This document shows, in pieces, positions 1,286 through 43,658 of a stretch of DNA of 64,000 bases. The stretch is from positions 1 through 64,000 of the forward strand of contig JAKSYS010000145.1 of assembly GCA_022925895.1 (NCBI GenBank). Reading direction: 5' to 3'. The first letter of the stretch is position 1. The number at the start of each line of letters is the position of its first letter. The notes beneath the pieces were generated by a model. The model was not told the DNA's origin, did no database searches, and saw nothing but the letters and a program-made list of their open reading frames with translations. The position numbers and the translations under genes were made by a program. Source of the DNA: Fragilaria crotonensis. Its lineage: Eukaryota > Bacillariophyta > Fragilariophyceae > Fragilariales > Fragilariaceae.

Positions 1286-4200
1286 ATGAACAGTCCAATC
1301 CAAAATCTTGCTCTTGGGAGGAACCGCCATGATCATAGCAACGATCGACTGGCAACCGAAGAAGTCAAAGATTCAACCATGACTTTGATCCTGCCGACAG
1401 ATATAATGCTTGGACGAGGTCCAACATGCTACAACAATCCAGGCAACAAGGTGTTTCGAAATCTGATCAAGGAACACGTTACAGAGTACAAGAACGACGC
1501 CCGACGGAAAGACAAGGCCGCACTAGTTAAGTTGTTGGTTTCCAAGATTGAAGCGAAGGGCTATCGTTTTCTCCATCGATCCAAGGATGGGGAATGGGTT
1601 GAAGCGCCTTCGAATATTGTCAAGAACAAGGTTGGCCACGGACTTCGAGACGCTCGAATTGAGGCTGGTAAAATTGACGGCAACGTCAATGTGTCTCCAA
1701 CGAAACCCCGTCCCAACCGTAAAGTGCAAAAGCTTACGTTCCAGGTCGTGCCAGTCATCTCTGTGCAGGCGATGGACGCGGAAGTAATGCGAGGTGATGA
1801 GTCGGGCAACATCCTCATTATCACCACGGGCGAAGACTCTAGATACGAATCTTTGCGCTCATTTTCTCATGTTTATCTTGTGCAAGGTGCGCAAGTTCCA
1901 GAGAGGAAACAACAAGTCTACGCTGAAAAGGCACCATCCAATCTGAATATAGCTTCTGATTCAGACTTGATGATCCATGAGTCAATTCCAGAGAAAGGAC
2001 AACAACGCATCGATGCAACGAAGGCTTCCAATCTCAACAAGACCATAGATTCAGACGCGATGCTACATGAGCCAATTGCAGACAAGGGACAACAACTCCG
2101 CGATGCAAACCCACCATCCGATCTGAACGAGGACATCGATTCGGATGTGATGATAGATGAGCCAATTCCAGACAAGGAACAACAACTCATCGACTCAAAG
2201 TCACCATCCGATCTGAAAATACCTTCTGATTCAGACTTGCTCATGCATGAGCCAATTCCAGAGAAAGGACAAGAAGTCATCGATGCAAGCACGCCTTCCA
2301 ATCAGAGCAAGGCCATTGATTCAGACGCGATGCCACATGAGCCGAATCCAGAGAAGGGACAAGAACTCATCGATGCAAGCACTCCTTCCAATCAGAGCAA
2401 GGCCATTGATTCAGCCGCGATGCCACATGAGCCGAATCCAGAGAAGGGACAACAAATCCGCGATGCAAATTCGCCTTCCAATCTGGACGAGGCCTGTGAT
2501 TCAGACGCGATACCAGATGAGCCACTTCCAGACAAGGGACAACAACTCCGCGATGCAGACTTACCATCCAATCTGAACGAGGACATCGATTCAGACGTGA
2601 TGTCACATGAGCCAATTCCAGACAAGGAACAACAACTCATCGACTCAAAGGCGCCATCCGATCTGAATATAGCTTCTGATTCAAACTCGATCATGCATCG
2701 GCCAATTCCAGAAAAAGGACAACAAATCCGCGATGCAAGGAATCTCAGCAACGACACTGATTCAGACTTGATGATGCATGAGCCAAATCCAGACAAGGGA
2801 CAACAACTCCGCGATACAAGGACGCCTTCCAATCTGAACAACGCCTTTGATTCAGACGTGATGACGCAGGAGCCAATTCCAGAGAAGGGACAAAAATGCA
2901 TCGATCCAAGTGCAACATCCACTCTGAAACAAGCCTTTGATTCAGACGTTGTATCGCAAGAGCAAATTCCAGAGAAGGGACAACTCCTCCTCGATGCAAA
3001 CGTACCATCCAATCTGAGCAGGGATTTTGATTCGAACTTGACGCCACATGAACATATTCCAGAGAAGGAGCAACAACTCATCGATGCAAAGGCACCATCC
3101 AAACTGAATAAAGCTACTGATGCAGACTTGATCATGCGTGAGCAAGTTCAAGAGAACGGACAACAACTCAGCGATGCAAGGACACCTTCCAATCTGAACG
3201 AGACCATTGATTCAGACTCGATGATGCATGAGCCAAATCCAGACAAGGGACAACAATTCCGCGATGCGAAGACGGCTTCCAATCTGAACAACTCCTTTGA
3301 TTCAGACTTGATGATGCGTGAGCCAATTTCAGAGAAAAGACAACAACTCATCGATGCAACAGCATCATCCGGACTGTACAGGGATTTTGCGTCAGACTGG
3401 ATGCGACAAGCCCCAATTCAAGAGAAGGGGCAACAACTCCTCGATGCAAGAACGCCTTGCGATCTGAACGAGGCCTTTGATTCAGACTTGATGCCACATG
3501 AGCTTAATCCAGAGAAGGGGGAACAACTCCTCGATGCAAATGTACCATCCAATCTGAACGAGGCCTTTGATACAGACTTGATATCACATGAGCCAAATCC
3601 AGGTATGGGACAACAAGTTATCGATGCAGACGTACCATCCAGACTGCAAAGGGATTTTGCCTCAGACTGGATGCCAATTCCAGACAAGGGGGAACAACTC
3701 CTCGATGCAAGGGCGGCGTTCAATCTGAACGAGGCCTTTGATTCAGACTCAATGTCACATGAGCCAATTCCAGTGGAGGGTCAACAACTTTTTGATGCAA
3801 ACGGACCATCCAGACTGTACAGGGATTTTGCGTCAGATCAGATGCCGCAAGCGCTAATTCCAGATAAGGGGGAACAACTCCTCGATGCAAGGACGGCGTT
3901 CAATCTGAACGAGGCCCTTGATTCAGACTCAATGTCACATGAGCCAATTGCAGTGAAGGGACAACAACTCTTCGATGCAAGCGGACCATCTAGACTGTAC
4001 AGGGATTTTGTGTCAGACCAGATGCCGCATACGCCAATTCCAGATAAGGGGGAACAACTCCTCGATGCAAGGACGGCGTTCAATCTGAACGAGGCCTTTG
4101 ATTCAGACTCAATGTCACATGAGCCAATTCCAGTGGAGGGTCAACAACTTTTTGATGCAAACGGACCATCCAGACTGTACAGGGATTTTGCGTCAGATCA

Positions 4201-7072
4201 GATGCCGCAAGCCCCAATTCCAGATAAGGGGGAACAACTTCTCGATGCAAGGACGGCGTTCAATCTGAACGAGGCCTTTGATTCAGACTCAATGTCACAT
4301 GAGCCAATTCCAGTGGAGGGTCAACAACTTTTTGATGCAAACGGACCATCCAGACTGTACAGGGATTTTGCGTTAGACCAGATGCCGCAAGCGCCAATTC
4401 AAGATAAGGAGGAACAACTCCTCGATGCAAGGACGGCGTTCCATCTCAACGAGGCCTTTGATTCAGACTCAATGTCACATGAGCCAATTCCAGTGGAGGG
4501 TCAACAACTTTTTGATGCAAGCGGACCATCCAGACTGTACAGGGATTTTGTGTCAGACCAGATGCCGCAAGCCCCAATTCAAGAGAAGGGAGAACAACTC
4601 CTCGATGCAAGGACGGCGTTCAATCTGAAAGAGGCCTTTGATTCAGACTCAATGTCACATGAGCCCATTCCAGTGAAAGGACAACAGCTCCTCAATGTTT
4701 ACGTACCATCCAATCTGAACGAGGCCTTTGATTCTGACTTGATGTCACATGAGCGCATTCCAGAGAAGGGACAACAATATTTTGATGCAAGCGCAACATC
4801 CAATCTGAACGAGGCCTTTGATTCGGACTTCATGTCACGTGAGCTAATTGCAGAGAAGGGACAACAACTCATCGATGCCAATCCATCAACCAGACTGTAC
4901 AGGGATTTTGCGTCAGAGTGGATGCCGCAAGCCCCAATCCAAGAGAAGGAGCAAGAACTCCTCGATGCAAGGAAGGCTTTTAATCTGAACAAGGCCTTTG
5001 ATTCAGACTTGATGCTACAGGAGCCAATTTCAGATATGGGACAACATCTCATCGATCCAGACGCACCATCCAATCTGAACGAGGCATTTGATTCAGACAT
5101 GATGATGCATGAGCCAAATCTAGACATGGGACAACAACTTTTCGATGCAAACGGACCATTCAGACTGTACAGGGATTTTGCGTCGGACCGGATGCCGCAA
5201 GCGCCAATTCCAGATAAGGGGGAACAACTCCTCGATGCAAGGACGGCTTTCAATCTGAGCGAGGCCTTTGATTCTGACGTGATGCCGGATGAGTTTATTC
5301 CAGAGAAGGATCACCAACTCCTCGATGCAAACGTACCATCCGATCTGAACAAGGCCTTTGAATCAGACTTCATGTCACATGAGTCAAATCCAGGTATGGG
5401 GCAACAAAGTTTTGATGCAAACGTAACATCTAACCAGAACGACGCCATCGATTCAGTCTGGATGCCGCATGCGCAAGTTCCAGACAAAGGGGAACAACTC
5501 CTCGATGCAAGGACGGCGTTCGATCTGAACGAGGCCTTTGATTCAGACTTGATGTCACATGAGCTTATTCCAGATCCAGAGAAGGGAAGACAACTTCTCG
5601 ATGCAAATGTACCATCCAATCTGACCAAGGCCTTCGATGCAGACTTGATGTCACATGAGCCAATTCCAGAGAAGGGACAACAACGTTTTGATGCAAACGT
5701 AACGTCTAACCAGAACGACGCCATCGATTCAGACTGGATGCCGCATGAGCCAATTCCAGACGAGGGGCAACAACTTCTCGATGCAAGGACGGGTTTCAAT
5801 CAAAGCATGGCATTTGATTCAGACTTGATGTCGCATGAGCTTATTCCAGATCCAGAGATGGGAGAACAATGCCTCGATGCAAACGTACCATCCAATCTGA
5901 ACGAGGCCTTCGATGCAGACTCGATGTCACATGAGCCAATTCCAGAGAAGGGACAACAACGTTTTGATGCAAACGTAACGTCTAACCAGAACGACGCCAT
6001 CGATTCAGACTGGATGCCGCATGAGCCAATTCCAGACGAGGGGCAACAACTTCTCGATGCAAGGACGGGTTTCAATCAAAGCATGGCATTTGATTCAGAC
6101 TTGATGTCGCATGAGCTTATTCCAGATCCAGAGATGGGAGAACAATGCCTCGATGCAAACGTACCATCCAATCTGAACGAGGCCTTCGATGCAGACTTGA
6201 TGTCACATGAGCCAATTCCAGAGAAGGGACAACAACGTTTTGATGCAAACGTAACGTCTAACCAGAACGACGCCATCGATTCAGACTGGATTCCGCATGA
6301 TCCAATTCCAGACGAGGGGCAACAAATTCTCGATGCAAGGACGGGTTTCAATCAAAACATGGCATTTGATTCAGACTTGATGTCGCATGAGCTTATTCCA
6401 GATCCAGAGATGGGAGAACAATGCTTCGATGCAAACGTACCATCCAATCTGAACGAGGCCTTCGATGCAGACTTGATGTCACAAAAGCCAATTCCAGACA
6501 ATGGGCAACAACTTCTCGATGCAAGGACGGGTTTCAATCAAAACATGGCAGTTGATTCAGACTTGATGTCGCATGAGCTTATTCCAGATCCAGATATTGG
6601 ACAACGTCTCATCGATCCAGACGCACCATCCGATATGAACGAGGCCTTTAAATCAGACGTGATGCCACATGAGCCAATTCCAGAGATGGGACAACATAAC
6701 ATCGATCCAGACGCGCCATCCAATCTGAACGAGGCCTTTGATTCAAAGTTGATGATGCACAAGCCAATTTCAGAGAAGGTAAAACCACTCCTCGATGCAA
6801 TTAAGCCTTCCTATCTGAACAAGACAGTTGACTTCAATCCATTTGAATTTCTTCATTCTCACGGATTGTTGGAGGAGGATACCGCAATGCCCTTGTTGGA
6901 CAATGAGAGTGAAGATTCTTCCGAAGGTTGTGACAGTGGCGGCCATGAAAACAATATTGTAGATCAAATACCTGATGAGCTATCTACTTCCTCCGAGATG
7001 GAACAAGGGATGGAGGATCGGAAACGAAGTTGGGACGACATGAACGACGGAACAGAAATCTGGACGTTGTAA
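1286..7072 (+). CDS. Giant DUF6824 protein with about 55 tandem 30-residue repeats
   Basis: Encodes 1,928 residues. The DUF6824 domain lies at about residues 39-123 (core TDIMLGRGPTCYNNPGN, then YRFLHRS, W, and a KVGHGLRDAR end). The function of this diatom family is not known to me. A short linker is followed by about 1,650 residues of a 30-residue acidic Pro/Gln/Asn-rich repeat (consensus like DSDLMSHEPIPEKGQQLLDA then NVPSNLNEAF), predicted disordered. The final part has the acidic segment shared by its paralogues (EQGMEDRKRSWDD) but stops early. The conserved paralogue tail ending SLCRWLSQSA continues in another frame to 7,197. Paralogues start at the Met of MTLILPTDIMLGRG, here at 1,379 in an AACCATG context, so the 31 residues before it may not be translated. 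It is followed by a convergent P5CS remnant. No intron is evident. The open frame through the whole repeat is seen directly; expression is unproven. Confidence 0.85.
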   Translation: MNSPIQNLALGRNRHDHSNDRLATEEVKDSTMTLILPTDIMLGRGPTCYNNPGNKVFRNLIKEHVTEYKNDARRKDKAALVKLLVSKIEAKGYRFLHRSKDGEWVEAPSNIVKNKVGHGLRDARIEAGKIDGNVNVSPTKPRPNRKVQKLTFQVVPVISVQAMDAEVMRGDESGNILIITTGEDSRYESLRSFSHVYLVQGAQVPERKQQVYAEKAPSNLNIASDSDLMIHESIPEKGQQRIDATKASNLNKTIDSDAMLHEPIADKGQQLRDANPPSDLNEDIDSDVMIDEPIPDKEQQLIDSKSPSDLKIPSDSDLLMHEPIPEKGQEVIDASTPSNQSKAIDSDAMPHEPNPEKGQELIDASTPSNQSKAIDSAAMPHEPNPEKGQQIRDANSPSNLDEACDSDAIPDEPLPDKGQQLRDADLPSNLNEDIDSDVMSHEPIPDKEQQLIDSKAPSDLNIASDSNSIMHRPIPEKGQQIRDARNLSNDTDSDLMMHEPNPDKGQQLRDTRTPSNLNNAFDSDVMTQEPIPEKGQKCIDPSATSTLKQAFDSDVVSQEQIPEKGQLLLDANVPSNLSRDFDSNLTPHEHIPEKEQQLIDAKAPSKLNKATDADLIMREQVQENGQQLSDARTPSNLNETIDSDSMMHEPNPDKGQQFRDAKTASNLNNSFDSDLMMREPISEKRQQLIDATASSGLYRDFASDWMRQAPIQEKGQQLLDARTPCDLNEAFDSDLMPHELNPEKGEQLLDANVPSNLNEAFDTDLISHEPNPGMGQQVIDADVPSRLQRDFASDWMPIPDKGEQLLDARAAFNLNEAFDSDSMSHEPIPVEGQQLFDANGPSRLYRDFASDQMPQALIPDKGEQLLDARTAFNLNEALDSDSMSHEPIAVKGQQLFDASGPSRLYRDFVSDQMPHTPIPDKGEQLLDARTAFNLNEAFDSDSMSHEPIPVEGQQLFDANGPSRLYRDFASDQMPQAPIPDKGEQLLDARTAFNLNEAFDSDSMSHEPIPVEGQQLFDANGPSRLYRDFALDQMPQAPIQDKEEQLLDARTAFHLNEAFDSDSMSHEPIPVEGQQLFDASGPSRLYRDFVSDQMPQAPIQEKGEQLLDARTAFNLKEAFDSDSMSHEPIPVKGQQLLNVYVPSNLNEAFDSDLMSHERIPEKGQQYFDASATSNLNEAFDSDFMSRELIAEKGQQLIDANPSTRLYRDFASEWMPQAPIQEKEQELLDARKAFNLNKAFDSDLMLQEPISDMGQHLIDPDAPSNLNEAFDSDMMMHEPNLDMGQQLFDANGPFRLYRDFASDRMPQAPIPDKGEQLLDARTAFNLSEAFDSDVMPDEFIPEKDHQLLDANVPSDLNKAFESDFMSHESNPGMGQQSFDANVTSNQNDAIDSVWMPHAQVPDKGEQLLDARTAFDLNEAFDSDLMSHELIPDPEKGRQLLDANVPSNLTKAFDADLMSHEPIPEKGQQRFDANVTSNQNDAIDSDWMPHEPIPDEGQQLLDARTGFNQSMAFDSDLMSHELIPDPEMGEQCLDANVPSNLNEAFDADSMSHEPIPEKGQQRFDANVTSNQNDAIDSDWMPHEPIPDEGQQLLDARTGFNQSMAFDSDLMSHELIPDPEMGEQCLDANVPSNLNEAFDADLMSHEPIPEKGQQRFDANVTSNQNDAIDSDWIPHDPIPDEGQQILDARTGFNQNMAFDSDLMSHELIPDPEMGEQCFDANVPSNLNEAFDADLMSQKPIPDNGQQLLDARTGFNQNMAVDSDLMSHELIPDPDIGQRLIDPDAPSDMNEAFKSDVMPHEPIPEMGQHNIDPDAPSNLNEAFDSKLMMHKPISEKVKPLLDAIKPSYLNKTVDFNPFEFLHSHGLLEEDTAMPLLDNESEDSSEGCDSGGHENNIVDQIPDELSTSSEMEQGMEDRKRSWDDMNDGTEIWTL
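1889..6830 (+). repeat. 90-bp coding minisatellite, about 55 copies, with higher-order units
   Basis: The unit is 90 bp (30 codons) and stays in frame throughout. Early copies (1.9-3.4 kb) are diverged. From about 3,680 to 4,650 a two-unit 180-bp period dominates, alternating a RTAFNLNEAFDSDSMSHEP type with a GPSRLYRDF type. From about 5,520 to 6,560 the period is 276 bp, made of three units plus an extra Asp-Pro, with adjacent copies nearly identical. This layering indicates recent local amplification on top of an older array. The strand bias keeps antisense frames open too, which produces spurious long minus-strand ORFs. Confidence 0.95.
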
Positions 7073-7197
7073 ATGCAGCGTTTTACAAAGGCTCGGTGTT
7101 GTGTGACGACTGCTTCGCTGGTGATCCGTGTGAGCCATTGAAGTACGATGCCGAGGATGCGCAGAGCCTGTGTCGCTGGCTCAGTCAATCAGCGTAA
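7059..7197 (+). pseudogene. Out-of-frame C-terminal tail of the giant DUF6824 gene
   Basis: Just past the giant gene's stop, a shifted frame reads LDVVNAAFYKGS, then GDPCEPLKYDAEDAQSLCRW and LSQSA before a stop at 7,195-7,197. Functional-looking paralogues at 32.2, 40.2 and 47.2 kb end in the same motif (DPYxPxxxxxEDAQSLCRWxxxxx). Relative to the 40.2-kb copy, roughly 75-80 bases are missing upstream of this tail and the join is out of frame. The conserved tail is therefore not translated with the body unless the assembly has an error here. Confidence 0.75.
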
Positions 7198-7240
7198 CTT
7201 TGACACGATGCCAACAAATGGTTTATTGTACACAATTTTA

Positions 7241-7372
7241 ACACATTTACGCAGCTCTTTTTATACGTACTGCTGTTTCAATTATTCGTCGCTAATGTAA
7301 TCGCAAACACATTTACGCAGCTCTTTTTATACGTACTGCAGTTTCAATTATTCGTCGCTAATGTAATCGCAA
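7241..7372. repeat. 66-bp tandem duplication
   Basis: The 66 bases beginning acacatttacgcagctc at 7,241 are repeated immediately at 7,307, with a single visible mismatch (tgctg versus tgcag). Near identity indicates a recent duplication. It lies within the P5CS-tail remnant downstream of the giant DUF6824 gene. Confidence 0.95.
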
Positions 7373-7440
7373 ACTCTGTCATACCCATCGATACCAAACC
7401 CCCAACTGTAGCCCGAAATCCGTACAATCCCTCAAGATCA
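7250..7440 (-). pseudogene. Decayed 3' end of a P5CS copy (copy 1)
   Basis: On the minus strand this segment aligns with the last codons of the intact P5CS gene at 48,340-48,570. The shared order is a DE.LK-type segment, then a lysine/glutamate tail with stop (gtttcaa then ttcgtcgctaatgtaatcgc against gtttcaa then cgtctccactgtattcac). A further match, cgataccaaaccc at about 7,389, corresponds to the next upstream codons. The similarity is weak on its own. It is credible because the other three upstream DUF6824 copies carry clearer P5CS tails in the same place and orientation. Confidence 0.5.
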
Positions 7441-9252: not shown

Positions 9253-10154
9253 TGATAGATTCTGCGTGCGAGCGCGGAGTGGAGGCCAGACCATGGTTAA
9301 ATCGGGCGCACGCCAGACCGGGGTCGCAGGCAGGTGGTGACGTCACGGTGACGGTATCGGTCGCTACAGTACGAACGTTGGCCGGTGCTACGGTTTCTGG
9401 ACTACTGGATGCTACGCTAGCGGCAGAGGAAGCGGGAGTGCTAGTAGCAAACGCGACGGTATACGCGTGGGTGTCTACTGGACGGGTATACTGAGCTACG
9501 GTATGACTAGGCGTAACTACAGCACATGTAGACGTAGACACAGTGCTAGTAGGCGAAGCAACTGTGCTAGTATCTGTAGGTACGATGCAAGTAGATGGTG
9601 CTACGTTGCGCGTAGGTGACACTACAGTATGTGGACGTGGGTGGAGTCCTACGGTGACGTCGGTAGCCAAGTGGGTACTAGTACACTGGCTATCGCTACA
9701 GGGGGACTGAACCATGATGACGGCGGGTAAAAAGTCGTCATGGTCAGTTACGCTGCTACGAAAATTGTACATTGTGAAAAATGGGGGCCGGCTAAATATA
9801 TTTACAAGGGTAGACAAATTTGTGAGAAATTGTTGATCATCAAATGATGATCAACTTCTTTTGATGAGTGTTCTCCAGGAACACTCAGGATCACAAAAGA
9901 AACGGTGCACGTCTGAAGAGTGCACGTCTGAAAAGGTGTACGTCTGAAGAGGTCGTACGAGGCCGAGCGTTGGGCGAGAAAATGGTCGTTTATGCAACGA
10001 ACGACATGAATTTGATCGTTGCAATTTTGGAGTGGGATATGATTCCCGTACGACAGTAACGATACGACGTATACTGTTTACTAGCCTAATGTGAAGTGTC
10101 ATACTGAATATGTAGACAGTAAAAATACGTAGGAGCGGTACTAAAAGTCTGTCA
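9253..10154 (-). repeat. 3' LTR of copia element A
   Basis: 902 bp, beginning tgatagattctgcg on the plus strand and ending aaagtctgtca. It is followed inward by cccctctt, the complement of a purine tract (aagagggg) that fits the polypurine tract next to a 3' LTR. It differs from the other LTR at roughly eight to ten positions. Confidence 0.93.
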
Positions 10155-13100
10155 CCCCTCTTGAATCAGATCTCCGTAGAAATTGGTGATGGAGAAAGTA
10201 GGTGATCAGGAAGTTTGCAAAAGATTTTGTCAAGGTGAGGATCAATCTTGGAGGATGTCTGAGTTTTGGTTAGGATGTCAGCAAGTTGAGAGTCACAAGG
10301 GATCCAATAGAGTTGATGAGTACCATCTTGTTGGCCTTGGCGGACAAAGTGAAAGCGTCTTTCAATGTGGCGAGTTTTGCGAGTTAGTTTGCCATTCTTG
10401 GCAATTTGAACAGTTGCTTCATTGTCAATCATAAGGACAGATGGGATTGTAGGTAAACGTTGGGATGATTCGCGCCATTGTTTAGTGCCAAGGTATGTCA
10501 TGTCATATAAAAGCATTCTGATGTGGGCAGTAGCCATAGTTGCAGAGCAGGCTGCCATGTATTCAGCTTCAGAGGTTGACATTGCAATTGGGGTAGGCAT
10601 TGTTGAGTTGGCTTCAATGAGGGCACCATTGTGAAAGATCATGTATCCAACAGTTGATCTGCCAGTGTCAGGGCAATCTTGCCAGCTGGCATCAGAGAAG
10701 ACAGTCAGGTCAGAGTATGGAATGCTGTGTTGGGCACAGATACTATAGATTGGGTTAGAAGTGCCATCAGGATAGAATTTCAAAGCATAGCTGGGTCGGC
10801 GTCTGAGATAGCCAAATAACCAGATAAGGGCGCGGAAGTCAAGTTCACCGGGGCAGATGCAGGCTTTTGCAAGTTTGCAGACTGCAAAAAGGATATCGGC
10901 ACGTGTGTTATATGCTAGATAAAGTAGGGTGCATACGGCTGAGCGAAACGGGAGGCGGGAATGTCTTTTCTCAATTATAGACTTGTCATGATCGGTGACA
11001 GGACGGTTATCTTTGGTGAAGACGTAATCGGGTGGGAAGGGAGTTTCGCGTTCAGGGAATTCGGAATCGGGTCATAGCGTTGGAGAGCGTTCAAGACATA
11101 TCGGTGTTGGTCTAGAGTGTAAGTGGAATCTTTGTGGCGGTGGATGCGCATTTGCAGGAACCATTGTGCAGGACCAAGGAATTTCACGTCAAAGCGGTTG
11201 CGGACGGAATCTTCGAAAGATTTCTCGATGGAATCGTTGCTTCCAACATAAAGCATGTCATCGACGAAGAATAGGAGGCGAAGCCATTGGTTATGTTTAT
11301 CATAGTAAACAAAATAGGATGGTTCTGCTTGGGATTGAATGAATCCTTGAGAGTATAGCCATTCAGAGAATTCAATGTTCCAATATTTGCCTGAGTAGAC
11401 AAGACCATAGATTCCTTTGTCAAGAAGAAGTGGGACTCCAAAGTATTTGGCATATTCTGGGAAGTGGTAGGCAAGGTAAAGTGGCAGGATCACAAAGTGA
11501 CGTCCAATAACTTTGGCTTGAAGATAGGCTCCAATGAAGTCAGCACCTTTAAGGATGCGGCGGAAAGCACAGGTTTTGGATATGAGGAGTTTGACCCCTC
11601 TTGAAGATGCACAGGGTGACCATGTGTCTTCAAAAGGTTGAGGGATCTCAATTGGGATAGTGTTAGACTTCTTAACTTTATTGATATTCTCTTCTCTTTG
11701 CTTAAGTAGTTGCTGCTGGTACTTTGCTTTAGTTTTCTTGATTCTTCTCTTTTCCATGTCGCCGCGGGCAACAAGGCGGGCTTTGAGTTTGTCAAGTTTG
11801 CCAGATGCTGTTTGCTTTGCTTTGAGCACAAGTTTAACTGGGATAATTAATTCATCTGCATGGGGTTTCTGGCCAAGAATGAAGGTACCATGATCAATGA
11901 GGTTCTTGATTTCCATTTTGATTGCATGAAGCCAGGCAGAGCGGATGTCATCATCAAGTTTGAGGACAGCTTGAAAGGATTGGGGTTCTGGCAAGTATTT
12001 ATCAACAGGATCATCATTTTCTGTAGATGTTTCAGCAGAGGCATCAAGGGTAAGCATAGCAGTGTGGATAGGGTCAATGGATGGTGGTGATTCAGCACAT
12101 TCTTGGAAGTAGAGTGTCATCTCTTTCTGAAGGGGTGTGTGTCTCTTCTGGTGATGAGTGAGATTGAGCAGTTGAGGTGCAGGTGGTGTTGGACCAGGTT
12201 GTAGATCATCATCATCAGTGTCATCATCATTATCAATAGTCTCAGTAGGAGGGTGATTATCAACATTATTGGTGCTTATGTTTAGTGTTTTTTGAAGGAT
12301 CATCAGTTGCTAGTTCTTCAATGAAGGAGGAAGGGTTGATTCCAAGGTTGGCAACAGATCCAGTTTGGTGAATGATGGTGGGTTCAGAATTCTCAACATT
12401 TTCTAGTCCATTAGGGTCCATGTGGGAGCGGATAGGAATGGCTCCAGCAAAAGGTTTGGAGTCAAAAGCAAGGGCAGAGCTGAAATCTTCATCAAAATAA
12501 GCGTCACGGGTTGTGATAATTCGTTGAGGATGGTCTGGGGAATAGACTAGCCAGCCAGCAGAGTTTTCAGGGAATCCAATAAAAGTTCCACGGGATGCGC
12601 GTTGGAGCTGTTGTTTATAAGTGATTAACTTGTTTCGAAAAGTCGGTTCATAACGTTTGAAATAGACTGGGCATCCAAATACGCGGAAGTTGGTGAGGCT
12701 GGGTTTTCGGCCATAACTATAGTGGAAGGGGGTTGTAGGATTTCCATCTTGATCAGTGACATTCTTTGCAGGGCAAGCATTGACAATTTGGACTGCATAG
12801 GCATGAGCATGGTGAAAGAAGGCACCTCCAAGTCTGGCAGTATTGAGCAGAGTGTTTGCAATGTTGTGGACTTCTCTCCATTTGGCTTCACAAATTCCAT
12901 TCATTTCTTGATGTTCAGGGGCTGCAGCTTCAACTTTGATTCCAAGATTGGTGCAAGTTGAGATGAATTTGGCAGAAGTAAATGCTGTTCCAGCATCAGT
13001 GCGGATAAAGCGGACAGATTGGGTGCGTCCAAGAAGTTCTGATTGTGTGAGCCAAGATTGCAGGGCAGTGAGAATGGATAAGGTGCTTTCAGTGGGTAGT

Positions 13101-15159
13101 CCAATCCAACCAGTTAGTTTGCCAGGAGTTGTCACAATGAAAAGGTAGGCAGAATAGTTAGTGTTAGTTGTCAGGCCAAAACGGAATGGGTTTCTCAGAA
13201 GGTCAAGGTGAAGTTGATGGAATGGTTCTGAACCTTGGCGGAGTGGGACTTTGCTTCTGGCGCGTTTTTGGCTGATTGAAATTCTGATTGGCCAAGTTTG
13301 AGTGTCAGTGGCTGGTGACAAAATGTGATCATTCCAAACATGGTGAAGGGATCCAGTCATAAGATTGCGGAAATTACGATGTGCAAGGCGACGGGATGTG
13401 ATCTCAAGTGGCAAGGTTGCAGTGGGTTGGTCTGGGTTTGGATTGGTTGAAGTGTCCAAGTGTTGCTCAAAAGTGATGGCAGGTGGGTTTGGAGTGTCAT
13501 CAGAAGTTGTGTTGGGTTGGGAAGTCATGGAAAAAGCTTGTTCAGAGGGTAGCTCTTGAAGAATGGTTGGCCATGTGTATGTTGAGTTGTTGGGAAAACG
13601 GATTGTGGTTGCTCTGTTCTGGATGATGACTGTGAAGTTTTGGGTGGCAGAAATGGCAGTCAGGGAAAGCAGACGGTGGCTAAGACCTTCAATGTAGTAA
13701 ACATCAGCAAGACCAAGGATAGCTTTCTGTCCTTCTGTGGTTGTAAAGAAACAGTCAGTTGTGCCTTTGAAAGTGGATATCTTGGTGGTTCCATCAGCAA
13801 GGGAAACAGGTACATGGCAGGGTTCAACATCATGGAGATCACTGAAGACAGGAGTGTAGTGGCTTGTAGCACCACTGTCAGGAGCCAATTATCAAGATCT
13901 GGCGGTCCAAAGCGCTGATATGCAGACATGGGGTCATCTGGGAAGTATTCAATTGCATCAGTGCTGGGAGGTGAGTGTGACATGGAGGGTACAAAATCAT
14001 TGTCAGTCAGTGATGGGTTGATTTCCATTTGAGGCAAGTTGGTGTCAGGCCAGATTGTTGGTGGGCCATTGTTGAAGGCAGGGTTGTTGTTAATGAGGCA
14101 AGGAAGGCTTGATGGTAATGAGTTGTTTCAGCATGAGGTGAAGATGAATAAGTGACAAAATAAGCTCTTTGATTTCTGGGAGCAGTGTTCTCATTATTGG
14201 TTGGTGACCTTGGGTTTCCTCCATTTCTGTTATTGGTGTTCTGAGGTCTGTTAGTTGCAGTTGGGCATTGTCTTGCATAGTGACCAGTTCTTCCACAATT
14301 GTTACAAACTATGTTGGTGGCATTATTGGGTGAAGGATTTGGCCGAAATGGGGTGGAATTGCTCTGCGGTCGATGTTGGTTGTTGGAGTTTGATGAAGTT
14401 GGTCGCAAGGGCGGTCGGTTGCCATGATTCGGTCTTGGTGGCGGGGCGTTGCGACGATTGTTTTGGTGACGGTTTGAATGCTGATTTTGGTTGCTTTGGG
14501 GTCTGATTGGTGGCCGATTGCCGCTGCTGTTTTGTTGGGTATAAGGTCGCAGAATTGAGCTGAGAGCTTGATGTTGTCGCGGGGTGAACTGTTTTTGGAA
14601 AGTCGGACGATGGGCAGGGCGATGGAATTGTTGGCGGGCAGCATTGGCATGTTGGTTATAATTGCGTTGATTTTGTGATGGCAAAGTTAGGCCACGGGAT
14701 TCGTCAATATTCAAAAGATGGCTTTCAAGTTCGGAGAAAGCGGGCAATTCTTCATCGTTAAGTTCGGCTCTGCGGAGGTCGGCATCAAAACGTTGGTAAG
14801 AGGCAGCATAAAAATGGTGATTACTTCCACCGCGAATGGCTCTTTTAATAAGATCTGCGTCTGTGTTGGGAATGCCGGCGTGGTAGCAATCGCGCGTCAA
14901 AACTCGGATGCGATTCAAATAGGAGGTTGCAACTTCATTGTGGCCTTGTTTAATAGAATAAAAGGCTTCTCTTGTGCGTTCAACATGATCTGGAGTAAGC
15001 GGAGCACAATGTCGGCGGAGAGTAAAGATTGCAGTTCTGGCATCTGGTGGGCCATCAATGATGTGTTTTTGGCAGGGATCACAGACATGTGTAAAAATGA
15101 GATTGTAAATTGCAGTGCCAATGAAGGGATGGGAGTAGGAAATCTGTTTGGGCCAAAGA

Positions 15160-18100
15160 TCAAAGACTTGGCGTGTCAGGAGAGATGTTACAAACGATGC
15201 GGAGGTTATCCATGAAGGCATTGAATTGTCGGCGTCGGGCGACAAGATCGGTTGGGTATGATAGTTTCCGGAGATTGGCATTTTTGGCATATTTCAAAAG
15301 GGTTTTAGTTAAATCTTCAATGGGTGGATAAGTGAAGTCAGTTCTGGTTGAAGAAGTTAGTGCATCTGGGGATTGCAAAGGGATCTGAGGAGGGTCATCC
15401 TGTTGGTCTTCATTATCTTCATCATCAGTAAAGAATGTTTCATGAATTGGAGGATAGGCAAAAGTTGGATGTTTTGCAGGTTTGTCCTTTGCTGCAGGTT
15501 TGGATGGAGTGTCTGTCTTTGGTGAAGAGGATGTTTCAATTTGGGTGTCTGGTTGCACAGATTTTGGAGACAGAATTTGTGTTACAGTGCGTGAAAGGCG
15601 TTTCAAAGGATTTTCGGCAGGTGTGTCAATTTCTTGAGCTTGGACGTCAGAAGATGGCTGATTTGCATCAATATTATGCGTTTCGTGTCGGGAAATGTCA
15701 GTTTCGGAAGAATTGTCAGAAGTATCTGGATCTGCAGTTTCTGGTTCAATTTCAGGGGGATTTTCTTCTTGAAGAGACGATCTACGGGTGCGGACAACCA
15801 TAAGGGCTGTGTGTTCACAAAAAGATGATTCTTGTTTGTCCAATTGAAATCTTACTACATTACAATTACTGCTGTCCATTCTTGTAGCATTTACACCAAT
15901 GTGTCTGTACAGGCAAGAAGGATCAGGTAAGTTGCAAGTAGTAACCTGGTTGTTAAAGAGACTAGTGTTCACACCAGACTCACCAGGGGGGTTGCTCAAG
16001 ATATTGGGTTCAGAGGCTTTGATGAAAGGATATTCAGGATGATTGTGTTGTTGCCAATAATATGAAAAAGGATTGTGAGTGATCTGAGACAATGGGTTGC
16101 TGAGGGCATTCTCAAGGTGTGGGAGAGCCCAGGATCCATAAACATCGGTGGATCCACGTTTTGTAGTAATCACTTGGATGAGGCGAGTTGCAAGAGACAA
16201 GGGAATGGTTTTGGGATCATCAATGACATGATAAACAGGGTTTGGTTGGCGCCAAAGTTGGCTAGGATTGTTGGGGCAAGTCCAGGGATTGGCAGCATAA
16301 CAGGTGTTCATTGGAATGCAGGCTTGGTCATTGAAAAGCTGTTGGACTGTTGTTGTTGTGTAAGGTTTGATGGTCCCATTGTGTTGGTGAAAATGATTGG
16401 TTTGTTCTCCTTGTTGTAGATAAGGGAAAATGTGAGCACTTGGCAATGGAATAGGAAGCTCAGTTGGGGATCCTGGAGTGTAGGAAGGAGTTGACTGATG
16501 CTCTTGGGTGTTGCCTTGGTAGATAAGGACTTTGGTTGGCAAGGGTGTTTGAGGTAGGACACATTGAGGGTCAGTGACATTGATGTTTGAGACAACTCTG
16601 AACATGGTGTATTCATGATCTGGCAGGAAATCAATGGAATGGTTGATGGTATCTGTCTTGATGGGGTCAAAGTTGGACTTAAGGGTTGCATAATCACAGT
16701 TTCCAATTGGGATGGTGAAGTTCTGAAGGTCATTGGAAGTGAGCGGACGGCAGATGACAAAGTTGACGGCAATAGCAGTGGCTTTTGAGTGCATGATTGA
16801 TAACTGTTCAGGTGTAGGGGATGTGGCCATTGGGAAGGCTGAGCAATTGTGATTCATGAGTAGATCAGCAGGGGGAAGGGAACCAATGCAAATGTTTGAG
16901 GATTGCAAATGTAAGTCATCTCCAGTTGTGAGTTTGGAAGTCAAAGTTGCATGTTGGCGGAGTGTTGCTGAGATTAAGACACGGGCAACATGGGAAGCAG
17001 ATGGAGATATTCCAGTTGTGGGTTCTCCAAAACCGTTGACAAGCGGTGAATGAGTGAATGCAATGAGGGATGCAGAGTTCAAATGTGTAGGAGTTTGAAT
17101 ATGGCGAGTCCTGGTGCTGTCCAAAGTGATATCATAGGGACTGGGAGACAGTTGCTGATCTTGGAAGAATTTGATAATGAAGCGCGGGACATCTCTGAAG
17201 TTACTTCGGTTCGGGAAAAGTCGTAGAGCGGTCGCAAAAGTTGGGATATTGCGAATGATATCAGCAAGTTCAGGAGGTTGATGAGGGCATGAAGATGTTT
17301 GTCCCTGAATATAAAGGTGGATGAGGTACATCATTTTGAAGGCATAAAGGATGGATAGGGAGCATTCATGTCCAAAGGATCCAGGTTCATAGTCACTCAA
17401 AAGGGATACAAATAATGATGGGGTGCCATTGGTGAGTTGAGATCTGTGCTCAGAAGAAAGATTGTCCATGACCAAATTGGTAGTTCTGTTGAAAGTGTGT
17501 TGGATGCATTGAATGAATTCCTCTTGATTGGGGTCTTTGTCAGATCCAGCAATTAAAATGGGATAAAGGTTGCACATCAGGTGGCGAAGATGTTCGGTCG
17601 TCAAGTCGCGAATGCATTGTTTGGTGACTGGATTTGACTGAATATAACGTAGACAGAAGCTTGCAGCTGTGATACTTGAATCAACACATGTTGGAAGGTT
17701 GCACATGGTGATTGGCCCATTGATGTCATCTTGAAGAGTTGCATCAGCATAGAAAAGAAGTGAGGCATGTGGATTGGTTCTGGAATCCAAATCAGAATGG
17801 TGTTGCAAAAAGGGGACATGATGGATTGGGTCCAAGACATTGTCTTCAGGGCAAGGGATGTGCAGTTTGTCAAGGCGGTATGGAAGCTCCAAAGTTTCAT
17901 CATCATCAGATAGTTCAAGAAATGCTGTGATTCCAGTGGATGTGGAAAGGCAATCAAAGGTGCTGTCATTGCTGCTGCTCAAATTGGAAAACAAGGGACT
18001 GAAAAGTTCTGAATTGAGACTGATTGCTGGAGATGGTGGTGCATCAAGATTTCTAGGTCCAGAGGTGTTGAAGGTTTTCAAATAATTGACTTGACATGAT

Positions 18101-20322
18101 TGAGTTCTGTTTCTGCTTGAAGGAGTTGAAGGGGTCTCAGTTTCATCATCATCAATTGAAATGGTGAATGGGATTGCAGCATTGATAGGTGGCTTGACAT
18201 AGAAAGGGTTGGCAACATTGATGGGAGTTGCAAATTGCTTGGACTTGGTTGGGGGTTGAGGCCTTGCTGGTCTTGGAATATTTTTCGTCATTTTTACATT
18301 TTTGGTAGCTTTTCTGGTTGTCATCCTGTCCATGAGAGTTAGGGAATCCAAAGTTTTAACTGTGAAGGAATCTGGGATAAATGAGCTGGTGTCTGTGCTG
18401 TCATCATTGTCTGAGGAATCTGGGACTGAGTAGGGAGAGTTTTGAATCATTGGGAGTGCATCAAGTTGTTTTGGAGATTCCTTTTTGTCGCCGTTGCTTT
18501 GTTCTTCAACTTCAACGTCAGCGGCGGGAGCTTTTTGTGCTTTGGTGGGCGGCAGTGTCTGATCGCGAACGGAAAGGCATAATTGTTTGGGACACGGGCA
18601 GTAGATGGAGAAGACACTTGAAGCATTAACTACGTCACTATCGTCGTCGTCATCGTCATCCATATCGTCATCGCGATAAATGTTGGTCGTGGAGCGAGCT
18701 GGAATGTCGTCAGACGCGTCAGTCATTTCGTCATCGTCCACGGGATCGCCGTTGTAATTAGGAACACGAGCATGGCCGTTAGGTTGGTCACGAATTGGAC
18801 GTTGGTAATTAGGAGAGGGGACGTCAGAAGGCGGGGTTGGCGCGCGCGGACGGATAGGCGTGGGTAGGATTTCAAAACCGGTCGGACGCAAGATGACGTT
18901 TGCGTTATGGGGAAAAATATGGACGGACGGGCTGCCAAATGTCGCAGCTGCAGTACTGAAAGAGATCTGTACGATCGTCGTAGAAATGTCATTGGCAGTT
19001 CGGCGCGGGGGTCCAATGTGTCCCAAGTCCAGGACTCTTGGGAGCTGATGGTGCGAATCACCACGATCATGGTCGTGGTCGGAAATGGGAATTGGGGTCC
19101 GCCATGGGGTCGCTTTGAGCGGCGATATCTCCGGATTGGTCGCTCCGATTTTCGTAAGTGGGAGCTTGTTTTGCAGGTCTTGGAGCGCCTGAGGAGTTTC
19201 TGACTTTACTTTTGTCGTGTGAAGGTCCGAACGCCCAACGAAATTGATTTGTTGACTTCCACATTCACGAACATATTGGCGGGTTTTATAACGGATCTCG
19301 GGCTGTTTTGCGTCTGAAAACGCATCCTTTTCGCAGGGAAGCATCGGGGAGGCAGGGACGTCTGAGTCATCGAATTGTCGCTTCCTGGTGGATTTTGGGC
19401 GGGTGGGAGCTGGAATCTTGCGGTCGTCGTCATCACGAACGCTGTAATCGTCATCGTCGGCGACGTCGTCATCGTCGCTATCGTCGAATAATTCTGTCTG
19501 GGGTTGGTGGCTGCGCGCAGGAGGGAAATGGTGAGTGCCCTGGGTGTCTGGAATGTACTCCTGCTTGATTCTCATGACTTTATGAGTGTTTGAGCGCTCT
19601 GCAGTCGCGCTGTCGATGGCCTCGGCGTTGCTAGCCGCTTCATCGTTGTCGTCGTCGTCGGTTTCGGTGGCCCTGAATGTTTTGTTGCGCCCAATAGGAG
19701 TTGTAAGGATGCCCTGGATGTATGGATGAGTCGTTGGATGGTTTCTGGTGGCGCGGGAAGACTTGTTGTTGCGCTCGGAGTTGGCGCGTTCGATGGCCTC
19801 GGCGATGACGGCCGCTTCATCGGTGTCGGTTTCGTAGGTAATTGCAGCTTTAGTAGTAGGAAGCTTCTTCTTTTTCATTGTAGTGTTAGTAAGGCCCAAT
19901 TTGGCTCTCTTAGAGCGAGTTAGATAGAGGGTGGGATGGGTGGGCGTAGCGGCAGGAATGTTGACATCTGCGCTCATGACGACTGGAGGCTCCGGTTCGG
20001 AGGCAAGAAAGGGGGACGAGTCCTTCTTCTTCGACTTCTTGTCGGCTTTCGTAAGGTTGAAGCGAATGGTGGGCATGGTGGGTGGGGCTGAAATGCTGCT
20101 GGAGGGGCTGGGGCTGCTGTTAACTAAGTTCTTAATAAATTGTGTGCACTTTGAATCTGGGGGAGCTCTGTTGAAAAATTCTGTTATTTTCAGTTGCTTC
20201 AGATCTGACAGTTTAGATGGAAGCATAACTGAATTCCTGAGCCTAACTAACCTGAAGGTATCAGAGTTAAAAAGGGCAGAGGACGCCTGCCTAAGTCGGT
20301 TGATTCTAGGCGAGTGAACCAT
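15160..20322 (-). other. Extra very long ORF of copia element A
   Basis: An open frame of about 1,880 codons precedes the gag region. The frame is open from within the 5' LTR (from 20,808), giving a Ser/Thr/Val-rich stretch. An in-frame ATG also sits exactly across the LTR/primer-site junction (20,320-20,322). The product is largely low-complexity and acidic, with Asp runs, several Lys/Arg patches, and about three degenerate repeats near residues 315-440 (TxxTDxDEAAxxAEAI). A QLKITEFF motif lies at residues 205-212. No known domain was recognised except that the end resembles a gag N-terminus. Diatom copia elements usually have a single gag-pol; an ORF of this size is unusual. Confidence 0.7.
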
Positions 20323-21221
20323 GATAGATTCTGCGTGCGAGCGCGGAGTGGAGGCCAGACCATGGTTAAATCGGGCGCACGCCAGACCGGGGTCGCAGGC
20401 AGGTGGTGACGTCACGGTGACGGTATCGGTCGCTACAGTACGAACGTTGGCCGGTGCTACGGTTTCAGGACTACTGGATGCTACGCTAGCGGCAGAGGAA
20501 GCGGGAGTGCTAGTAGCAAACGCGACGGTATACGCGTGGGAGTCTACTGGACGGGTATACTGAGCTACGGTATGACTAGGCGTAACTACAGTACATGTAG
20601 ACGTAGACACAGTGCTAGTAGGCGAAGCAACTGTGCTAGTATCTGTAGGTACGATGCAAGTAGATGGTGCTACGTTGCGCGTAGGTGACACTACAGTATG
20701 TGGACGTGGGTGGAGTCCTACGGTGACGTCGGTAGCCAAGTGGGTACTAGTACACTGGCTATCGCTACAGGGGACTGAACCGTGACGACGGCGGGTAAAA
20801 GTCGTCATGGTCAGTTACGCTGCTACGAAAATTGTACATTGTGAAAAATGGGGCCGGGCTAAATATATTTACAAGGGTAGACAAATTTGTGAGAAATTGT
20901 TGATCATCAAATGATGATCAACTTCTTTTGATGAGTGTTCTCCAGGAACACTCAGGATCACAAAAGAAACGGTGCACGTCTGAAGAGTGCACGTCTGAAA
21001 AGGTGTACGTCTGAAGAGGTCGTACGAGGCCGAGCGTTGGGCGAGAAAATGGTCGTTTATGCAACGAACGACATGAATTTGATCGTTGCAATTTTGGAGT
21101 GGGATATGATTCCCGTACGACAGTAACGATACGACGTATACTGTTTACTAGCCTAATGTGAAGTGTCATACTGAATATGTAGACAGTAAAAATACGTAGG
21201 AGCGGTACTAAAAGTCTGTCA
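20322..21221 (-). repeat. 5' LTR of copia element A
   Basis: 900 bp and near identical to 9,253-10,154. On the coding strand it ends ...atcta-tca and is followed at once by tggttcactcgcc. TGG at this position is the usual start of a tRNA-primer binding site. The flanking acctg at 21,222 completes the target duplication. Confidence 0.93.
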
Positions 21222-31353: not shown

Positions 31354-32109
31354 GGCCGACCGAAATGGACCACAGTGCACTGAAATTCCATGTTCCCTTG
31401 CGACACATAAAAATGAAGGTTGCTGATTGGCTGACAGAGTTCTTGCAGACTACAGTAGTCGAGTACATACTAATACTACTAGCTAGTGCCGGTAAGACAG
31501 AACAAATCTACACTGTAGTACAACCTCGTTTGTAAGACAATTCTATGATACGGCCGCCTCTGCTTTGCTTTTACTATGTATGATTCATCAGTAGCTACTC
31601 CCGCGTCCTCGTTCACAAGACGACAGAACTGCCGTAGGTGGCGTGTTGAAAAAGGCGCCGGAGTCGTCATTTGCTGATGATTTGGATTTGTCGTACAAGT
31701 ACTTGTACCTGACGTGTGACATGTCATGCTTTGTCCGATCTGGACGAAGCAGCAAACCAAGATTCCGTTTTGACTACTTCGAATACTGTTACGGTAAGGG
31801 TAACAAAATCACAAGAACGAAAATGACGTGCGATTTTATTAGGTTTCTTTTGAATCGCATTTTGGTAATGGTTTTTCGTCGCAAGATAATAAGGATTGGC
31901 CTGAGAGTCCCACTAACTCAAAAATCCAAGTTGAATCACGAGTCGATTAGTTCGAGCACTTGGAAACTTGGAGGTGCAAAAAAAACCGAATGGACACGCC
32001 CGTTGATTCGCCAAGATGCTATGATCGTACACGTTTTCTGTCTGTGACCAGAATAGAGGTCACTCATGGTACATGTTACATGTACCATTATTCGCATCAG
32101 GCCAAACAG

Positions 32110-32135
32110 GCAAATCCAAAATATTGCCTCAGGAT
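32110..32135 (+). promoter_or_regulatory. Conserved leader motif of DUF6824 genes (copy 2)
   Basis: gcaaatccaaaatattgcc lies 81 bp upstream of the conserved ATG. The same element, aatccaaaatcttgc, occurs at about 1,297 (copy 1) and 40,113 (copy 3); shorter forms caaatccaa occur at 42,671 (copy 4) and about 47,135 (copy 5). A position 50-110 bp before each start suggests a core-promoter or 5'-UTR element, or simply residual homology. Confidence 0.5.
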
Positions 32136-32190
32136 GAACGGCAATGGCCACTGTGAGCAGCGATTGCCAACCAGCGTCGACGCTTCAACC

Positions 32191-33105
32191 ATGTGCTCTT
32201 TGATCCTGCCGACAGACATAATGCTGGGACGAGGCCCAACGTGTTACAACAATCCAGGCAACAGGGTGTTTCGCAAACTGGTGAAGGAACACGTCGAACA
32301 TTACAAGAATGAAGCCCGTCGAAGGGAAAAGGCAGCCTTAGTTAAGATGCTGATTTCCAAGCTGCGCGCGAAGGGCTATCGTTTTCTCCATCGATCTGCA
32401 ACTGGGACATGGATTGACGCGCCTCCTCATATTGTGGAGAAAAAAGTTGGCCATGGGCTTCGAGACGCTCGACTTTCAGCGTCTAAGATTGGCGGCGACA
32501 TCAAGGTGCTCCCGAAGAACTTCCGTCCCGCCATTGCAGAGCCAAAGCACACAGTCCAGGCCGAGGTTGTCGTGAGCGGAGAGATAATGACTGCTGAAGA
32601 AATACAAGGGAAAAGGTCGGACAACACGGCCGTTATCACTACTGGTGAGGCAAGCAATTGCGATACAACTTCAACAAAGTTACAGGAGAATCTCAAGCAT
32701 GTGGTGGACTCCTCACCGGTGTCCCCCCTGAACTTGCCTTGTGACTTCGCCTCGATTCCGCTGGAGCTCCCTCTTGCTGACGGGAGACGACAGAATGCTG
32801 GACTGTCCTCCTTCTTCGCTGAGACTTACACAAATTCCTCCTCAGAGATGGAGCAACGGTTGGAGAATTGTGAACGGAGTTGGGACGACATCAAGGATAC
32901 TTTGAGGCTTCCAGATGTTTCACCAAGGGCTGTGGCAACACATGGTGCCCACGATCTGGATGCTGTGGGCATGGTCATGAACATGTACGCCGGTGTTTAT
33001 GGACAGAATTTCGACAACTACATTGTTGACGATCCCTATCAGCCATTTGGGTGCGATCTCGAGGATGCGCAGAGCCTTTGCCGCTGGTTTAGTCACCTTT
33101 TGTGA
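32191..33105 (+). CDS. DUF6824 protein (copy 2), no repeats
   Basis: 304 residues counted from the Met of MCSLILPTDIMLGRGP, the start shared by the paralogues (CAACCATG context). The frame is open further upstream into the Harbinger right end, which is unlikely to be coding. The DUF6824 domain covers about residues 8-93 (NNPGN, FRKLVKEHV, YRFLHRS, KVGHGLRDAR). The middle is a variable linker without the 30-residue repeat. The C-terminal third has the acidic segment (MEQRLENCERSWDD), a conserved DAVGMVMNMYAGVYG helix-like stretch and the terminal DPYQPFGCDLEDAQSLCRW motif, all intact. The function of the family is unknown. This copy and the one at 47.2 kb look like complete, repeat-free versions of the gene. 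Confidence 0.85.
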   Translation: MCSLILPTDIMLGRGPTCYNNPGNRVFRKLVKEHVEHYKNEARRREKAALVKMLISKLRAKGYRFLHRSATGTWIDAPPHIVEKKVGHGLRDARLSASKIGGDIKVLPKNFRPAIAEPKHTVQAEVVVSGEIMTAEEIQGKRSDNTAVITTGEASNCDTTSTKLQENLKHVVDSSPVSPLNLPCDFASIPLELPLADGRRQNAGLSSFFAETYTNSSSEMEQRLENCERSWDDIKDTLRLPDVSPRAVATHGAHDLDAVGMVMNMYAGVYGQNFDNYIVDDPYQPFGCDLEDAQSLCRWFSHLL

Positions 33106-40096: not shown

Positions 40097-40195
40097 CACG
40101 TGGTCCGTATCGGCAAATCCAAAATCTTGCCCTCGGGATAAACCATTACGACCATTTGCAGCAGCAATTTGGCAACCAGAGTCGAGGCTTCAACC

Positions 40196-42418: not shown

Positions 42419-42757
42419 CATGTTCAACCGAATTGTCGACGAATCTAGTTGATTCGGAACTCTGAAAAAAGCGACTAATCTAGAGGGTAAGCCGTGGTAC
42501 AAAACACTCATATTATAACAAGAGCAATCTTTATTCATATTCAGAACTCGGAGTTTGATTGGGTCTGATTTTTGTAAATGACATTTCTGTGACCCTGCAA
42601 ACGGATACGAAGACGTACGTGATGGATATTCTGATCCAAGATCCCTTTTTTTCTTTCTCCAACCAACACGCAAATCCAAATTCTTTTGTTCGTCGACTGA
42701 ACGATTGAACGATTGAACGATCGAGACGATTGAGAGGAACGATCGACAATTCCTACC

Positions 42758-43658
42758 ATGACTTTGATCCAGCCGACAGACATTATGTTGGGACGAGGCC
42801 CAACGTGCTACAACAACCCAGGCAACAGGGTGTTTCGGAAGCTGGTCAAGGAGCACGCAGTCTTTTACACGAATAAAGCACGTCGGAAGGAAAAGGCCGC
42901 ACTAGTCAAGTTGTTGGTTTCCAAGATTGAAGAAAAGGGTATCGTTTTCTCCATCGATCCACACCTGGGACATGGGTTGAAGCACCTCTTCATCTTGTGG
43001 AGAAAAAGGTGGGCCATGGGCTTCGTGATGCTCGACTTTCGGCGTCCAAGATATCCGGCGACGTCAATGTACTTCCTAAGAAGTCTCGTCCCGATACTGC
43101 AGAGCAAGCTCACAAGCGCCAGGTCAAGCCAGTCGTCGCCGGTAAGGCACAAACCTCCCGCATTCCAGAGAAAAGAAAACAACTCCTCGATATCAAGGCA
43201 CCTTCCAATCTGAACATGACGTTTGATTCAGACTCGATGCCACATGATAACGCTCTTGGTAACGGATTGTGGGACGATATAGCACTGCCCTTGTTCGACA
43301 ATGAGATTGCGGAACGCTCCGAACATTGGGGTAGTGACGGAGACGTTAACAATGTTACAGAGAAATGGCCACATGAACTCTCTTCATCCTCCGAGGTGGA
43401 GCAAGGGCTGGAGGATCGGAAACAAGGGCTGGACGCCAAGAACGACGCAGCGGTGTTCCCGGATGATTCACCAAGTCATGGAGTAGCACACGCCGCTCAC
43501 GTTGCGGAACATCTGGATGCGGTTTTGGCCATGTATGCAGCTTTTACAAAGACTCGTTGTCGTTTGAAGACTGCATTGCTGACGATCCACATGAGCCATT
43601 GGGGTACGATGTCGAGGATGCACAGAGCCTGTGCCGCTGGTTTAGTCATCTTTTGTGA
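42758..43658 (+). pseudogene. DUF6824 pseudogene (copy 4), single repeat unit
   Basis: Starts at the conserved MTLIQPTDIMLGRG. Compared with copy 3 it lacks one base at about 42,928 (aagggtat for aagggctat), which shifts the frame inside the DUF6824 domain; the domain resumes in the next frame (EKKVGHGLRDARLSASK). A second single-base loss near 43,545 (gcttttac for gctttctac) shifts it again before the C-terminal tail, which continues as DPHEPLGYDVEDAQSLCRW to a stop at 43,656-43,658. It carries one copy of the 30-residue repeat (IPEKRKQLLDIKAPSNLNMT). Both lesions are single-base losses beside short homopolymers, so an assembly error cannot be excluded; otherwise it is a recent pseudogene. 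Confidence 0.8.

Follow-up and report, generated by a model that had tools for sequence, protein, structure and literature searches.

How does one member of a gene family come to carry 54 in-frame repeat units, when its paralogs in the same assembly have three, one or none that stand out from background, and is the resulting protein tail maintained? The question is raised by copy 1, a gene in the window analysed here, a stretch of 64,000 bp comprising bases 1-64000 of contig C53 (106,082 bp), within a searched genome of 62.1 Mb and 881 contigs. In our view, to which we give a probability of about 0.6, copy 1 is a working gene of the DUF6824 family whose disordered acidic tail arose when one acidic linker segment of the ancestral gene was multiplied in frame.

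Anatomy of copy 1

The anatomy of copy 1 can be read by computation, and consists of a domain near the N-terminus and a very long repeat array in a single frame:

1286-7072, plus strand: open reading frame of copy 1, 1,928 codons and 1,928 residues, open throughout
1400-1651, plus strand: residues 39-122 of copy 1, its DUF6824 domain, profile match with E 2.3e-18, positions 1-84 of 84
1889-6835, plus strand: array of 30-residue units of copy 1, 54 near-complete units with partial units at the ends

Copy 1 scores 66.8 bits against the Pfam model PF20710 (DUF6824), for which the curated cut-off is 27, and covers the whole model, which places it in this family. TRF describes the array as 54.2 repeats of 90 bp at 1933-6823, and a cyclic protein alignment resolves it into units 2-55 (54 units, 1931-6802), flanked by partial units that start at 1889 and end at 6835; two units are short by three residues and five carry a two-residue insertion. 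With its 90-bp unit, the array is a coding minisatellite, defined as a tandem unit of more than 6 bp whose length is a multiple of three and which is read in one open frame. The sequence-only reading had counted about 55 in-frame units, a figure that both methods bear out, and had proposed that the array be tested for lying in one frame: the array frame has no stops over its 54 units, against 18, 47, 78, 80 and 97 in the other five.

That the length or the frame of the array is an artefact of assembly seems to us very improbable. Direct repeats as long as those found here, up to 275 bp, are liable to collapse or expansion when short reads are assembled, but the mean pairwise identity among copy 1 units is only 72%, so that most of the array is uniquely anchored, the window is without any N, and the single frame is open from end to end; an error would be likelier in the 276-bp blocks described below than in the array as a whole.

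A six-frame search of the genome with a two-unit consensus gave 43 matches (from 48 candidates, all scored), every one on contig C53, and confined the unit to copy 1, copy 3 (40682-40993) and copy 4 (43159-43251); at the DNA level, a 1.4-kb piece of the array used as query had seven matches, all within these same three copies. Four Pfam matches inside the array, DUF7736 (26.8 bits, cut-off 25) and the sub-cut-off nos_propeller_2, DUF7842 and YqzM, span 15-32 profile positions with no single stretch passing alone, and were rejected as chance matches to the repeats.

The DUF6824 family and the paralogs of copy 1

DUF6824 is mainly a diatom family. A literature search found nothing on it, copies 1, 3 and 5 had no match in NCBIfam, and no relative was present among 20 pattern stretches from viral contigs. 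The domain is greatly multiplied in this genome, with 150 scored matches (of 174 candidates), some of which are pieces of one gene. Among the 150, the longest open frame is that of copy 1, which measures 1,943 residues in this count, and the next has 918. Two of the matches on the same contig, C53:72522 and C53:72861, are each assigned an open frame of 408 residues, so that one frame seemingly contains two DUF6824 domains. Within the window the profile finds the full domain in copies 1, 2, 3 and 5, a piece of it (positions 1-56) in copy 4, and a sixth, more distant match at 62579-62836. The other copies are:

31960-33105, plus strand: copy 2 (DUF6824 at 32215-32466), unit not significant
40169-41386, plus strand: copy 3 (DUF6824 at 40217-40468), three units at 40703-40972
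42749-43646, plus strand: copy 4, broken in frame, with a single unit at about 43159-43251
47188-48276, plus strand: copy 5 (DUF6824 at 47266-47517), unit not significant

Two Copia-like elements lie between these genes, both on the minus strand. The first, an LTR element at 9253-21221 between copies 1 and 2, has LTRs of 902 bp that are 99.0% identical and an extra open frame of 1,882 residues (15160-20808) upstream of its zinc-knuckle frame, with no Pfam match at E <= 0.001; the second, at 35057-39566 (RVT_2, Pol_BBD, Retrotran_gag_2), lies just before copy 3.

Members of the closer subfamily share a layout in which the domain is followed by a variable linker and then by a C-terminal motif (LDAV..YA..., SLCRWF). 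The C-terminal part is present at 16 places including copy 3, to which the alignment of linkers adds C548_188k, C326 and C833. Ten members have the motif in frame with the domain, namely copies 2, 3 and 5, C53_83k, C55_244k, C55_256k, C548_188k, C548_78k, C326 and C833. In a family tree of 18 members, built on the domain and the sequence that follows (420 columns; C869_110k, for which no start was found, and C55:250k, C98:162k, C53:72k and C53:92k were among those left out), copies 1 and 3 are sisters (100/99), with copies 4 (71/57) and 2 (63/75) placed near them with weak support.

The units take the same place after the domain in all copies that have them, as had been proposed from the sequence, and their number between paralogs of this one assembly is one in copy 4, three in copy 3 and 54 in copy 1. 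For copy 3 the proposal had been three to four, of which three were found (in the phase IPEKG...SH); for copy 4 the single unit was confirmed, but in a gene that is broken by frame changes rather than intact.

Copy 1 itself departs from the subfamily layout at its 3' end:

7055-7072, plus strand: site between 7055 and 7056 at which copy 1 has lost 55 bp that copies 3 and 4 have, with the resulting frame change and stop, from sequence comparison

The loss of 55 bp shifts the frame and leads to the stop at 7070-7072, and copy 1 is short by a further 9 bp relative to the same two copies. The C-terminal motif is still present at 7069-7191, out of frame, so that copy 1 lacks the in-frame motif found in copies 2, 3, 5 and the seven other members. 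Just downstream of the gene, at 7240-7374, there is a tandem duplication of 66 bp with 98% matches.

Origin of the unit

In an alignment of the linkers, the position of the unit is occupied by a single related segment in three C548 paralogs and in C326. The resemblance was assessed by shuffling ten linkers 1,000 times each against two queries, the consensus unit and a copy 3 unit, giving 20 tests whose results stand uncorrected for their number. With either query, none of the 1,000 shuffles reached the score of the copy 4 unit or of C548_188k. For C326 the number was 0 with the consensus and 46 with the copy 3 unit, and the remaining members gave higher values in the same order of queries: 18 and 63 for C833, 55-57 and 198-221 for the other two C548 members, 68 and 952 for C55_256k, and 977 and 950 for C53_83k. 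A search with a unit profile again returned C326 (9.3 bits) and C548_188k (8.9 bits) as the best distant matches, and one shuffled sequence scored higher (11.0). A single unit is thus likely the ancestral state, a conclusion that draws mainly on two distant paralogs, C548_188k and C326, with a matching lone segment at the same place.

Copies 2 (612 and 466 per 1,000) and 5 (140 and 357) have no unit that stands out from the shuffled sequences. The absence in these copies, described earlier as absent or vestigial, stands as far as significance goes, but not as a state before the birth of the unit: since the distant C548_188k and C326 carry a single matching segment, it looks more like divergence or loss. 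The lone unit of copy 4 is a relic, as the gene is broken. The five copies had been read as clean steps in the birth and growth of a repeat domain, and this does not hold, as copies 2 and 5 make poor starting states and copy 4 is no longer a gene in one frame.

Growth of the array

The copy 1 array is not uniform, and falls into four zones according to the mean identity of each unit to its best match:

1931-3361, plus strand: units 2-17, the diverged zone, at 85% mean best identity and with traces of a 450-bp block (an exact 44-bp run at lag 450)
3362-4702, plus strand: units 18-32, in which two unit types alternate in blocks of 180/360 bp, at 93.5% mean best identity
4703-5512, plus strand: units 33-41, a mixed zone at 87% mean best identity
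5513-6622, plus strand: units 42-53, the zone that looks youngest, at 96% mean best identity

In the last zone, three blocks of 276 bp at 5609-6436 (units 43-51) are 97.5-98.9% identical, and a run of 275 bp occurs in identical form at 5647 and 5923, which shows recent growth. Computation therefore shows that the array grew through blocks of changing size, of 180/360 and 276 bp with traces of 450 bp, a pattern that would fit unequal exchange or slippage.

The direction of change between copies 1 and 3 is less simple. In a tree of the units (90 columns, many forks open), one copy 3 unit joins one of the two types of copy 1 (96/85), and the last, partial copy 3 unit joins the copy 4 unit (93/83). 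These groupings indicate that at least two unit types are older than the split between copies 1 and 3, whose ancestor already carried more than one, and that copy 3 may have lost units. One could go further and suppose that a long array already existed in the common ancestor and that copy 3 shrank, in which case the unit numbers would record contraction as well as growth. The copy 3 unit that falls with a copy 1 type speaks for this; the identical and near-identical blocks record recent growth in copy 1, and the tree on which the argument stands leaves many forks unresolved, and we regard a long ancestral array as unlikely.

TRF was also applied to 46 loci, made up of the 30 best DUF6824 matches, each taken with about 1.5 kb of flanking sequence at either end, and of 16 further stretches; 17 of the 46 had arrays of period 12 or more. 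A frame check on both strands covered 11 of these 17 (all except L059, L061, L062, L063, L066 and L067), and found unit-like in-frame arrays in two, L018 (75 bp x 2.5, after the domain) and L020 (120 bp x 1.9, before the domain), besides short simple in-frame stretches before the domain in L011, L022 and L028. The L018 repeat, of 25 residues at 2019-2202 of that locus, may represent the process seen in copy 1 at an early point. As the repeat scan was limited to the 46 loci and the window, we call copy 1 the extreme of its family by open-frame length.

Selection on the array and on the domain

Since the units share a history, we relied on tree-based tests in preference to a star-like comparison, and the effects are weaker there. 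On the unit tree, 17.1 stops are expected from a minimum of 415 changes, and none is observed; neutral simulations on the tree, under four rootings, gave means of 13.8-16.4 stops and a minimum of 3 in 1,200 runs. One stop does appear in a reconstructed ancestor, which we take as an effect of site-by-site reconstruction. The mean unit charge, -3.83, was attained in 5, 1, 0 and 10 of 300 neutral runs, depending on the rooting. A star-like start from the consensus gives 29.1 expected stops, and no run of 300 as acidic. The length changes of units (-9, -9 and +6 bp) do not count as separate evidence on the frame, because the alignment was built on the open frame.

The frame is guarded, whereas replacements inside the units look near neutral: the Nei-Gojobori ratio is 0.71 over all pairs and 0.87 over the 43 nearest pairs, and with the observed mutation spectrum omega becomes 1.08 (94 silent and 320 replacement changes, P 0.53). 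The stretch of 62 codons that separates the array from the domain is as free, with a ratio of 1.09. Around this overall omega of about 1 the unit positions differ in rate. Column entropy is below neutral (0 of 300 runs as low in all four rootings), position 28 is Asp in 53 of 54 units and took 2 of 414 changes, and the better conserved positions include S11, D12, M14 and D10. Near-neutral replacement fits a tail that has no sequence-specific job.

The domain behaves differently from the units. Its dN/dS between copies 1 and 3 is 0.185, and on the branch leading to copy 1 replacements make up 10 of the 21 assignable changes, where 76% would be expected (omega about 0.29, P 0.005, restricted to sites at which copies 2 and 5 agree and with the neutral ratio and mutation spectrum of the array). 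The copy 1 domain is thus under constraint. Compared with copy 3, it took 21 of the 26 assignable changes (P 0.002) and 11 of the 14 silent ones (P 0.06), an excess for which gene conversion of copy 3 would account, as would a raised local mutation rate.

These data bear on whether copy 1 was released from selection after the 55-bp deletion, its array being a neutral satellite that is open by chance. The gene could indeed be on its way out, because the C-terminal motif has been lost from the frame and so many of the domain changes fell on copy 1, which evolves faster here than copy 3; the neutral replacement rate inside the units and the broken state of the adjacent copy 4 point the same way. 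Such decay would, however, be expected to leave 14-17 stops where there are none, would hardly have kept the array acidic, and sits badly with a domain omega of 0.185, or 0.29 on the branch of copy 1 itself, and so we consider it improbable.

Predicted product

For the DUF6824 domain, AlphaFold2 with five window sequences gave a fair model with a pLDDT of 79.5 and a pTM of 0.67, which predicts a strand, three helices, the first of them short, along with a hairpin and a long final helix. A search with the domain among sequences of solved structures returned nothing at E <= 10, and Foldseek searches of PDB and BFVD with the model returned nothing at E <= 0.001 (best values 1.1 and 0.088), so we assign no fold to it.

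The array, in contrast, is probably intrinsically disordered. A model of four units has a pLDDT of 47 and a pTM of 0.12, with no secondary structure, from only 11 related rows, and the charge-hydropathy value of 0.410 lies on the disordered side of the boundary (0.459). Its net charge is -206 and its pI 4.2, as compared with a pI of 10.0 for residues 1-150 of copy 1. The acidic and probably disordered polymer described from the sequence alone is supported; the Pro/Gln richness also described is only moderate, the composition being D 12.6%, S 8.9, P 8.7, L 8.5, A 8.1, Q 7.4 and E 7.2. A strongly hydrophobic stretch was sought in copy 1 and none was found, the highest 19-residue mean being 1.18, and the product is for this reason likely intracellular.

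A basic folded domain joined to an acidic tail recalls a transcription factor, and the array might be a string of acidic motifs forming a repeated activation domain. The consensus unit contains FDSDLM, presumably a VP16-like motif, and the conservation of unit positions S11, D12, M14 and D10 noted above would fit this idea. One region after the array deserves mention in this respect:

6809-6949, plus strand: acidic/hydrophobic patch after the array (residues 1842-1888), with the only tiles of copy 1 that pass equation 1

The acidic exposure rule for activation domains (PMC10550315) scores 39-residue tiles with limits on charge and on W/F/(Y)/L counts. The looser of its rules, equation 3, is passed by tiles in six of ten paralogs tested. 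Within the array, 112 of 1,587 tiles pass equation 3, no more than in 100 shuffled arrays (105 +- 30), and none passes equation 1, where the shuffled arrays have 10.9 +- 12.1; the mean tile charge of -5.0 and WFYL count of 5.3 fall short of the limits of the predictor. The array thus resembles an acidic activation domain no further than its composition does, and DNA binding by DUF6824 is itself only putative. The patch and the paralog tiles notwithstanding, a repeated activation domain appears to us improbable.

Proposed history of copy 1

The reading that we prefer, in which a working gene gained a disordered acidic tail, would start from an ancestral gene with a single copy of an acidic linker segment some 30 residues long. 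Repeated tandem duplication of blocks, perhaps by unequal exchange or slippage, would have multiplied it in frame, the outcome being a predicted disordered tail of about 1,625 residues carrying the charge computed above. Selection would maintain the open frame and the acidity, with the exact residues drifting almost freely. The small basic N-terminal domain is retained and would bind a partner, most likely nucleic acid or some other nuclear component, and the tail would act through bulk properties, such as charge, length and many weak contacts. In this account the anatomy, the open frame, the pattern of selection and the growth by blocks are results of computation, the single ancestral segment is probable, and the mechanism of growth and the molecular role are proposals.

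A bolder form of this proposal, which we put forward tentatively and think rather unlikely, is that selection guards nothing beyond the open frame and the net charge, that one, three and 54 units, derived from one ancestral linker segment, make up a natural series of length and valency, still changing, for an acidic disordered tail borne by one kind of small basic domain, and that copy 1 traded its C-terminal motif for tail length.

Comparison with known systems

The papers listed by a literature search name no array like that of copy 1, which we see as a new and extreme case of a known event, the in-frame growth of a minisatellite in one paralog. The closest parallel is in the human morpheus paralogs, where type-1 units number at most 4 in one group and up to 39 in the other, with units of 57, 69 and 87 bp (De Grassi and Ciccarelli 2009, PMC2812944). 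In both systems closely related paralogs differ widely in the number of units of a coding minisatellite. They differ in family, host and unit, as well as in the 54 units and acidic, probably disordered product of copy 1, known here from genome data only, and in that the likely single ancestral segment would still be visible in distant DUF6824 paralogs.

Protein repeats in general, according to Persi, Wolf and Koonin (2016, PMC5120217), diverge within one protein under strongly relaxed purifying selection, with adjoining repeats tending to be most alike, as tandem duplication predicts, before a second phase in which each repeat is conserved between species. Relaxed selection between units and likeness of neighbours would place the copy 1 array in this general regime. 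The phenomenon itself is known from other families; the value of this case lies in the apparent survival of the single-segment state, together with a guarded frame set against free residues. One gene family that has the likely single-segment, the three-unit and the 54-unit states of the same repeat, and this pattern of selection, offers a test case for how disordered repeat domains begin and grow, and for whether tail length is itself a trait.
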